Below are positions 21,508-64,000 of a stretch of DNA of 64,000 nt, in pieces (position 1 is the stretch's first letter; each line of letters begins with the position of its first letter). The position numbers were made by a program, and so were the translations under genes. The notes under the pieces were generated by a model that was not told the origin of the DNA, made no database searches, and saw only the letters and a program-made list of their open reading frames with translations. The DNA comes from Agrococcus sp. KRD186 (GTDB lineage Bacteria > Actinomycetota > Actinomycetes > Actinomycetales > Microbacteriaceae): the NCBI RefSeq assembly GCF_017168255.1, contig NZ_JABFAP010000001.1:1705691-1769690 (forward strand). Reading direction: 5' to 3'.

Positions 21508-21590
21508 CTGCCGGTGCGAGAGCGGTGTGCGGCATTGCGCCACGACGGGAATGGGCGGCCGCGCGCGTGAGTTGTAGGGTGGCAGTGCAA

Positions 21591-21728
21591 CGTGCCCGGG
21601 GTCAGTGCAAGTCTGAACCGGCGGTGAGAGTCCGCGACCCGAGCGACCTGCGTCCAGACGAGCGGGGCGATCGGCTGAGCTGGTGGAATTCCAGCACCGA
21701 CGGTGAGAGTCCGGAGGGGAGGCGCACG
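21591..21728 (+). ncRNA. FMN riboswitch (RFN element)
   Basis: Aptamer upstream of the riboflavin operon. The conserved RFN blocks can be read in order: CGGGGTCAGTG, GAACCGGCGGTGAGAGTCCG, then after a variable stem GGTGGAATTCCAGC, ACCGACGGTGAGAGTCCGGA and GGGGAGG. The ends (GTGCC near 21592, GGCGCAC at 21721) can close P1. A -10 candidate TAGGGT lies at 21575-21580. FMN binding should lower expression of ribD-ribE-ribBA-ribH. Confidence 0.95.
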
Positions 21729-21729
21729 C

Positions 21730-21779
21730 AGGGTCGACCGCCGACCCTCCGTTCCCCGTGCTCGTTCGGAGAGGGACGG
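21730..21779 (+). promoter_or_regulatory. Expression platform of the FMN riboswitch
   Basis: AGGGTCG pairs with CGACCCT (21730-21736, 21742-21748). The right arm of this hairpin continues into CTCCG (21747-21751), which can instead pair with CGGAG (21767-21771) in the ribD ribosome binding site. The two pairings compete, so control of translation initiation is likely. No T-run for a terminator is seen. Confidence 0.6.
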
Positions 21780-24678: not shown

Positions 24679-25179
24679 ATGGCTGGAGAAGGACGTCCCG
24701 ACGGCGCCGGGCCCGATGCGACGGGGCTGGATGCGAGCGGGCTGAGGATCGCGATCGTGCACGGCCGCTGGCACGAGCAGATCGCCACCGGACTGCTGGA
24801 GGGCTCGCGCCGCGCGCTCGCCGAGATGGGGGCCGAGGTGACCGAGCTGCCGGTGCCGGGCTCGTTCGAGCTGCCGGTCGTGGCGCAGGCGGCGCTCGAG
24901 GCCGGCTTCGACGGGGCCGTGGCGCTCGGCGTCATCATCCGCGGCGGCACGCCGCACTTCGAGTACGTCTCCGAGGCCGCGACGATGGGCCTCACCGAGG
25001 TGGCCGTGCGCACCGGCAAGCCGGTCGGCTTCGGCGTGCTCACGCTCGACGACGAGCAGCAGGGGATCGACCGCGCCGGCCTCCCCGGCTCCAAGGAGGA
25101 CAAGGGCCGCGAGGCCGCCGAGGCGGTCGTCGAGGCGGCCCTGGCGCTGCGCTCGCTGCGCGGTGGAGCTATGGGCTGA
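24679..25179 (+). CDS. ribH: 6,7-dimethyl-8-ribityllumazine synthase
   Basis: 166-aa lumazine synthase, penultimate riboflavin step, forms icosahedral or decameric shells. It contains LRIAIVHGRWHEQIATGLLE, VPGSFELPVVAQAA, GVIIRGGTPHFEYV with the catalytic His in PHFEYV, and GVLTLDDEQQ. The N-terminal extension is rich in Gly, Asp and Ala. The last six codons, coding RGGAMG, lie inside the structured repeat that follows, so the native C-terminus may have been rewritten by the repeat. Confidence 0.95.
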   Translation: MAGEGRPDGAGPDATGLDASGLRIAIVHGRWHEQIATGLLEGSRRALAEMGAEVTELPVPGSFELPVVAQAALEAGFDGAVALGVIIRGGTPHFEYVSEAATMGLTEVAVRTGKPVGFGVLTLDDEQQGIDRAGLPGSKEDKGREAAEAVVEAALALRSLRGGAMG

Positions 25180-25237
25180 GGCCCTTTCGGGCCTCAGCCG
25201 CGACCCCAGCGCCCGGGCCCGTCTCGGGCCCGGGGCT
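25160..25237 (+). repeat. Structured double-hairpin intergenic repeat, copy 1 (after ribH)
   Basis: Shared lead GCGGTGGAGCT (25160-25170), hairpin I GGCTGAGGCCC-TTTC-GGGCCTCAGCC (25174-25199), linker with GCGACCCCAGC, hairpin II CCCGGGCCCG-TCT-CGGGCCCGGG (25212-25234). The same layout with compensatory stem changes occurs at 34315-34393 and, shorter, at 63018-63060. It probably ends the rib operon. Confidence 0.75.
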
Positions 25238-25435
25238 CCGTTCCGCCGGCGGGCGGATGCGTCGCGACGGGCTGCATTGAGCGCGACCGTCCCGCTCCAC
25301 AGCCGTTACACTCGAGTGTCGTCCCAGCGGAGCCGAGGGTGTCTCCGACGCGACCGGCCCGCCACGAGCGGACCGCTCCCCCGCGCGCTGCACACCCGCA
25401 CTCGATCGCGCGCGAACCGCATTCAGGAAGCACGC
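25238..25435 (+). other. Upstream region of the MFS transporter gene
   Basis: 198 bp without a gene. A TACACT -10-like box lies at 25307-25312, giving a leader of over 100 nt. An AGGAAG ribosome binding site precedes the ATG at 25436. No convincing -35 or further structure was seen. Confidence 0.3.
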
Positions 25436-38930: not shown

Positions 38931-39003
38931 TGCCGCCTGGGAGAATCGAACTCCCGACCTATTCATTACGAGTGAATCGCTCTGCCGACTGAGCTAAGGC
39001 GGC
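38931..39003 (-). tRNA. tRNA-Thr (anticodon CGU)
   Basis: 73-nt cloverleaf on the minus strand: acceptor GCCGCCT pairing AGGCGGC, D-arm with GCTCAGTCGGCAGAGC, anticodon stem ATTCA/TGAAT with loop CTCGTAA (anticodon CGT), T-arm GGGAGTTCGATTCTCCC, discriminator A. The CCA end is not encoded. Confidence 0.95.
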
Positions 39004-59669: not shown

Positions 59670-59748
<79 letters not shown>

Positions 59749-63017: not shown

Positions 63018-63060
63018 GCCGTGACCCCGGCCCGAGACGGGCCGGGGCGCTGGCGTCGCT
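63018..63060 (-). repeat. Structured intergenic repeat, copy 3 (after asd)
   Basis: On the minus strand: GCTGC-TCCC-GCAGC (a short hairpin I), then CGACGCCAGC, then hairpin II CCCCGGCCCG-TCT-CGGGCCGGGG (63047-63025). Loop and linker match copies 1 and 2, and one pair of the stem is swapped on both sides relative to copy 1. It lies just after the asd stop. Confidence 0.6.
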
Positions 63061-63074
63061 GCGGGAGCAGCGCG

Positions 63075-64000
<926 letters not shown>

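Follow-up and report, generated by a model that had tools for sequence, protein, structure and literature searches.

A short two-hairpin repeat at gene ends in Agrococcus and other Microbacteriaceae, probably a small mobile DNA element

Three genes in the window analysed here, a stretch of 64,000 nucleotides from Agrococcus sp. KRD186, end at or in copies of a short repeat of about 78 nt that consists of an outer helix (P1) and two hairpins (P2 and P3). The best explanation, to which we give a probability of roughly 0.65, is that the repeat is a non-autonomous mobile DNA hairpin element, served by a putative mover acting in trans and lying mostly at the ends of host genes. This reading is suggested by comparisons between genomes, which show dispersal, element-free sites in a relative, target duplications in relatives, a sharp 5′ end, conserved pairing, and positions at gene 3′ ends in both orientations. 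Since the hallmarks of the REP/REPIN and MITE families fail and the genome of origin has no RVT_1 reverse transcriptase, we file the repeat as a new variant among small mobile palindromic elements.

The features of the window that bear on the element are these:

25156..25238, + strand: full copy 1, a model match of 97.4 bits
25158..25169, + strand: 5′ box and P1 5′ strand of copy 1, GCGCGGTGGAGC, with the G variant at model position 8
25174..25199, + strand: P2 (hairpin I) of copy 1, stem GGCTGAGGCCC/GGGCCTCAGCC and loop TTTC, containing the ribH stop TGA at 25177-25179
25200..25212, + strand: 3′ box and P1 3′ strand of copy 1, GCGACCCCAGCGC, with the C variant at model position 50
25212..25234, + strand: P3 (hairpin II) of copy 1, loop GTCTC; base 25212 is able to pair in P1 or P3
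34314..34397, - strand: full copy 2, a match of 86.8 bits whose start falls at the stop codon of an aldehyde dehydrogenase gene (called gabD in the preliminary description)
63021..63077, - strand: copy 3, degenerate, 41.6 bits, E 0.003, with the linker and P3 kept and P2 lost; its start is at the TAG with which the gene for the semialdehyde dehydrogenase closes
24679..25179, + strand: ribH (DMRL synthase), an open frame whose start codon is not fixed and whose last codons and stop (RGGAMG, stop) lie within the element

The preliminary description had given all three copies one layout, with hairpins whose stems change on both sides. Copies 1 and 2 do share it (box, hairpin I, linker GCGACCCCAGC and hairpin II) and differ by two-sided stem changes as claimed; copy 3 lacks hairpin I. 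It has instead a short hairpin, GCTGC-TCCC-GCAGC, in a position that in the related genome G011 is taken up by the 5′ box and the whole of hairpin I, the 3′ box there being changed. The short hairpin is therefore not homologous to hairpin I, and the copy at 63018 is a deletion derivative of the element. By Pfam, the genes that end at the three copies encode DMRL synthase (ribH), an aldehyde dehydrogenase and a semialdehyde dehydrogenase; the ribH stop codon is inside copy 1, ending 24 nt in. The window also holds an FMN riboswitch (RF00050, 76.8 bits, 21589-21730, + strand) upstream of the region with ribH, the carrier of copy 1, and two tRNA genes, at 38931-39003 (- strand) and 59670-59743 (+ strand).

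The number of copies in this genome (3.10 Mb, G000) is far beyond chance. Copy 1 finds 29 matches with blastn, and a covariance model (R1), built from an alignment of 25 full copies from the genome, finds 34 at E<=1, 31 of them at E<0.01; a search of this kind for further copies had been proposed in the preliminary description, and they are there. The 31 own copies examined below are 30 of these 31 matches together with one at 2361394 (E 0.045), that at 1940218 being left out. The 5′ box, GCGCG[G/C]TGGAGCT, is followed by a linker of about 4-5 nt and by P2 with its UUUC loop, and the 3′ box, GCGAC[C/G]CCAGCGC, is followed by P3 with the loop GUCYC. Loops and boxes are conserved among the aligned copies. 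At G000:C1:1183527-1183749 (L012:1528-1750) one full copy is followed by two half copies (linker and P3) about 70 nt apart, and L009:1398-1515 (+), which adjoins the copy at 110022, has a sub-threshold match to the actinobacterial sRNA Ms_IGR-7 (39.4 of 45 bits).

The paired positions change together. The 25 own copies score 0.359 for covariation, compared with 0.112 when shuffled (0 of 500 as high) and at most 0.118 when slid; for 78 distinct rows from other genomes, which were aligned to the model and so lean to it, the score is 0.328 against 0.088. The covariation for which a test had been suggested is there, with many two-sided changes. In a table of pairs from 181 aligned copies, P1 position 8-50 is C-G in 99 and G-C in 75, and position 4-56 is C-G in 155, A-T in 15, G-C in 5 and T-A in 1. 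The table implies that the two boxes are both strands of one helix, with C and G variants that switch together, and it gave the final register of P1, two having been counted at first. A tandem G.A/A.G pair lies at 11-48 and 12-47, where L021, L091 and L126 have Watson-Crick pairs instead. A kink-turn reading of P1 was ruled out, the three-base bulge being absent. In L119, L094 and L082 the sequence of P1 is different yet complementary, e.g. GGGCGTGTCGCC/GGCGACACGCCC in L119.

Copy 1 folds better than its shuffles (z -3.9, with 1 of 200 as good) and so does copy 2 (z -4.3, with 0 of 200); five own copies folded as RNA beat their shuffles with z from -3.1 to -6.1, and, folded as DNA, copy 1 does so on both strands and copy 2 on one. 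Covariation is by itself no proof of RNA function; the hairpins of mobile REPINs likewise show compensatory changes (according to parts of PMC3116915) and template switching is able to homogenise the arms of inverted repeats (according to parts of PMC8604942).

A record of insertion can be read from the relatives. In stretches of G011, 15 of the 31 own copies were mapped on both flanks: 11 of these sites are without trace of the element, two hold it intact, one holds a decayed copy and one a different derivative. At seven of the 11 traceless sites the flanks are no more than 48 nt apart; for L019, L024, L028 and L200 they are separated by 73-363 nt in G011, and these sites are not clean. The missing copies may in part be losses.

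Target duplications are found beside copies elsewhere. In a set of 183 copies, which contains orthologues, 13 have the stretch immediately 5′ of the element repeated downstream of it with a score of at least 16, against 0 of 183 for an inverted control. These 13 lie in other Agrococcus genomes and in G032, and in every one the end of the left target copy falls between -3 and +6 nt relative to the model start. A duplication at this score is seen beside none of the 31 own copies examined, and the seven short-gap sites in G011 have none as far as read. Among the matches listed for named records, 21 of 103 copies have a duplication (1 of 103 for the inverted control), copies too near the end of a stretch being left out of the count. 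In 20 of the 21 the left copy ends at the element start; the length is 19-67 nt with a median of 35, and the longest, that of 67 nt included, come from tandem arrays. The two sets overlap in some records, and by eye there are about 20 distinct duplication sites. The gap from the element to the right copy is mostly 0-31 nt, with 47 in L052 and 113 in L314. For random left-right pairs, 99% score below 14.5 and 14.0 in the two sets, and the maxima, 37.5 and 27.5, are taken, unchecked, to be orthologous pairs.

Copies that stand singly, flanked left and right by a target copy, are found at unrelated genes. There are also tandem arrays (in L148, L078, L089 and L280), and arrays are seen whose unit is element plus target copy. 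The array at L078:1501-1740 (G012) has three units of 79 nt, and L089:1501-2009 (G012) holds a series with 154-nt dimers, in which the P1 boxes are off consensus yet pair and a part reads N. In L175:1201-1283 and in L148 the element lies within a native palindrome, GAGAGCCCCGCCGAAGCGGGGCTCTC, half of which is duplicated.

The element is associated with the ends of genes rather than with their beginnings. With a simple codon-usage gene caller, 153 stops and 43 starts fall within 40 nt of the 183 copies, which bears out the enrichment after stop codons that the preliminary description wanted examined. These comprise 78 sense and 75 antisense stops, and 32 antisense and 11 sense starts, so that a place on the coding strand at the 3′ end of a gene, claimed for all three window copies and correct for them, is no general rule. 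The 31 own copies lean to the sense strand as first reported (17 sense and 12 antisense stops). Between tandem genes there are 36 sense and 56 antisense copies in the 183-copy set (7 and 5 for the own genome; 5 and 9 each for G012 and G032); 56 of the 183 lie between convergent genes and 17 between divergent ones, and the simple gene caller places 14 inside a gene. The orientation data agree with a DNA element.

For 9 of the 31 own copies the end of the sense gene lies within the model match, 12-25 nt in, and C-termini supplied by the element include ALARWS where G011 has the native ALNDLR, AKIRAVEH where it has AKIRSAR, and WLPLVRGGAPE where it has WLPLVRLPHPKGD, each directly before the stop. 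Beside antisense copies the right-hand duplicate often has the last 20-40 nt of the gene with the stop (by eye in L040, L108, L194, L196 and L291), so the gene end can be rebuilt; the duplicate in L048 is a repeat of the next gene's start and not of a gene end.

Within the genus the element is present in 19 of 24 genomes, the own one included, and it is also found in 4 of 13 other family members and 0 of 23 genomes of other families. A family-wide scan of 299 Microbacteriaceae genomes from 85 genera, in which at most 15 matches were scored per genome, found it in 69 of the genomes and 32 of the genera. The distribution is patchy within genera, e.g. in g103, with at least 15 matches against 1 or 2. 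An order-wide search with stricter filters gave 2 of 248 genomes, both Microbacteriaceae, and a scan of named records gave at least 112 stretches. Among the matches listed there, Parvibaculum and Acidobacteria MAG contigs have whole elements with flanks that by eye are like those of other Microbacteriaceae loci, and are suspected to be misbinned Microbacteriaceae; a match in Azohydromonas is without hairpins and resembles coding sequence, and was ruled out as an element. In L326 and L328, also among the matches listed, copies adjoin what by eye appear to be tRNA gene sequences. The box pattern has 0 matches in viral_contigs, where a phage origin was looked for. Literature searches for Agrococcus repeat elements or Microbacteriaceae interspersed repeats found no paper, from which we make no wider claim of absence, and one for Microbacterium repetitive extragenic palindromic sequences returned, by title, none on such an element.

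Where a copy has stayed in place it seems to have been constrained. The 25 orthologous pairs compared, 22 taken by rule and 3 added by hand, have members in common and are not independent. Their boxes differ at 18 of 650 sites (2.8%) and their loops at 17 of 225, against 48 of 100 (48%) in the linker and 57 of 100 in the tail; the set is biased to intact copies, as both members had to match the model, and one decayed copy occurs among the 15 mapped sites. Of the 669 stem pairs 49 changed: 30 exchanged one Watson-Crick pair for another by changes in both arms, and the single changes comprise 10 with G.U, 1 with A.C and 8 others. Most of the orthologous pairs have 0-2 double changes, and some have several paired changes at once. 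To judge from these alignments, the constraint exceeds that expected of a dead insertion and looks like selection in place, and that of the boxes beside a variable linker counts against a purely selfish reading. The box constraint could come from selection in place, from conversion among copies, or from homogenisation of the arms by template switching, as parts of PMC8604942 describe it.

The preliminary description took the paired changes to mean selection on RNA structure and not just a mobile repeat, i.e. a strand-specific structured RNA, such as a 3′ UTR element, selected for its fold. The strong two-sided covariation, the conserved loops and boxes, the position after stop codons, the constraint at orthologous sites and the lean to sense stops in the own genome would all fit. 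If pairing served an RNA of one strand, G.U would be expected to be far better tolerated than A.C. Stem cells in 174 distinct rows of the element hold 4513 Watson-Crick pairs, 45 G.U, 30 A.C and 76 others (G.U against A.C, p=0.11), and roughly distinct events number 33 for G.U and 26 for A.C, whereas in 31 tRNAs of the own genome the acceptor and T stems hold 343 Watson-Crick pairs, 28 G.U and 1 A.C, in a stem register chosen with G.U counted as paired, which slightly favours G.U. The two ratios differ with a Fisher p=1e-4, for cells that do not count as independent; taken by themselves, P2 and P3 have 36 G.U against 20 A.C (p=0.04). A weak RNA component of selection may for both reasons be present. 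The absence of an overall sense bias, with the excess of antisense copies between tandem genes, speaks against the RNA reading, and the traceless G011 sites, the target duplications in relatives and the patchy bursts point to mobility. Rfam at gathering has no match over the copies in the window, and at E<=5 the nine own loci give one chance-level match over a copy, Pab19 (E 4.1), on the opposite strand. We regard this reading as quite unlikely. Less so, though still unlikely, is a mobile element that the host later kept as a bidirectional terminator or stabiliser of mRNA 3′ ends, its hairpins being selected on both strands. Copy 1 folds on either strand, the copies between convergent and divergent genes would suit such a role, and there is the constraint in place; but a T-run was seen after P3 in none of the 183 copies and, on the other strand, after P1 in 2 of them, copy 1 has no terminator-like site, copies have turned over at the G011 sites, and a plain terminator would have no need of conserved boxes. 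Such a role is compatible with the mobile-element explanation as a side effect.

Other routes of spread are harder to reconcile with the data. SINE retroelements are small, structured and non-autonomous, with variable target duplications, and retroposition of this kind, in which the RNA of the element is reverse-transcribed into a nicked target, would account for duplications of long and variable length and for the sharp 5′ end. We hold it to be very unlikely: the consensus has no A-rich tail, and a search for the RVT_1 family found it absent from the own genome and from 22 of 24 genus genomes, so that an RVT_1 enzyme is not supported as the mover. The two exceptions are reverse transcriptase genes in G006 and G011 (L365 and L366). 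The least probable account, to which we give hardly any credence, does without insertion and supposes that an old repeat was multiplied by tandem duplication and gene conversion. It draws on the four arrays and on the orthologous pairs with several paired changes at once, and is opposed by single copies with flanking target copies at unrelated genes, by the copies missing from G011, and by the 0-2 double changes in most orthologous pairs. Nearest in kind are the REP, BIME and REPIN families (GTAG and CGTC superfamilies), which are likewise short, palindromic, mostly downstream of genes, mobile and clustered, with compensatory changes (REPIN hairpins show them in parts of PMC3116915) and a GA-flanked foot; here the foot GA-GC...GC-GAC is like those of Xanthomonas and Pseudomonas REPs in parts of PMC2817692. 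Size, gene-end location and an imperfect palindrome would suit a REP or REPIN family with a Y1 (RAYT) transposase as its mover, which we nonetheless think highly improbable. Y1 (PF01797) was found in 0 of 24 genus genomes and in 0 of 15 other Microbacteriaceae genomes rich in matches, with a positive E. coli control, so a Y1 mover is not supported in any of the 39 genomes searched. A REP is defined by a GT[AG]G tetranucleotide 0-2 nt before the hairpin (in parts of PMC6006769), and here, of 181 copies, 77 have G at position 8 and 101 have C, a variant that reads CTGG and so has no GT[AG]G. The element differs further in its two unequal hairpins and outer helix, and in making target duplications, where known IS200/IS605 members make no larger ones by the account in parts of PMC2817692. 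The main text of a REP survey (PMC3733652) does not use the word 'Actinobacteria', as far as its consulted parts go, and cites untagged REP-like sequences in M. tuberculosis; a search for literature on REP-associated tyrosine transposases in Actinobacteria found no paper. Nor was a recurrent mobile gene seen beside the copies among the 25 largest clusters of 755 predicted proteins at named loci, as judged by eye.

The mobile-element explanation can be put as a mechanism. An element of about 78 bp would fold as single-stranded DNA into P1, with its tandem G.A mismatches, P2 and P3, and a putative enzyme acting in trans would insert it, at least partly with a target duplication of about 20-50 bp, whose left copy would end at the first bases of the element and whose right copy would follow mostly 0-31 nt after it. 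We infer that the enzyme recognises the DNA strand in its folded form, and that strand recognition together with homogenisation of the arms may have led to arms that change together. Insertions at gene ends would be those that survive, the element probably supplying a stop codon in the sense orientation and the duplication probably rebuilding the gene end in the antisense one. A bolder claim, which seems possible to us but rather doubtful, is that this is a new type of transposition, with DNA of under 80 bp recognised as a folded single strand, variable target duplications of about 20-50 bp, an enzyme class unlinked to bacterial transposons, and gene 3′ ends as refuges.

Among actinobacterial repeats, the MIRU repeats of mycobacteria are also short, lie over stop codons and are partly in tandem. 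Our element is likened to them by description and not by sequence, and a search for papers on MIRU with target site duplication found none. Bacterial MITEs such as Correia and RUP are likewise non-autonomous, under 200 bp and flanked by target duplications in the account given by parts of PMC2229807. Compared with the MITEs described there, the element has neither terminal inverted repeats nor TA ends (the consensus ends were read by eye), and its target duplication is long and variable, 19 to 67 nt, instead of short and of fixed length.

The best-known small palindromic repeats of bacteria are tied to Y1 transposases or to insertion of the MITE type, and the present element has its own anatomy. 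Many Microbacteriaceae keep a record of its insertion that includes duplications of about 20-50 bp, no enzyme is visible, and the mover is thus a findable target. The case also warns against taking covariation between the two arms of a dispersed repeat as sufficient evidence of selection on RNA; the ratio of G.U to A.C and a test of orientation help to separate an RNA reading from a DNA reading.
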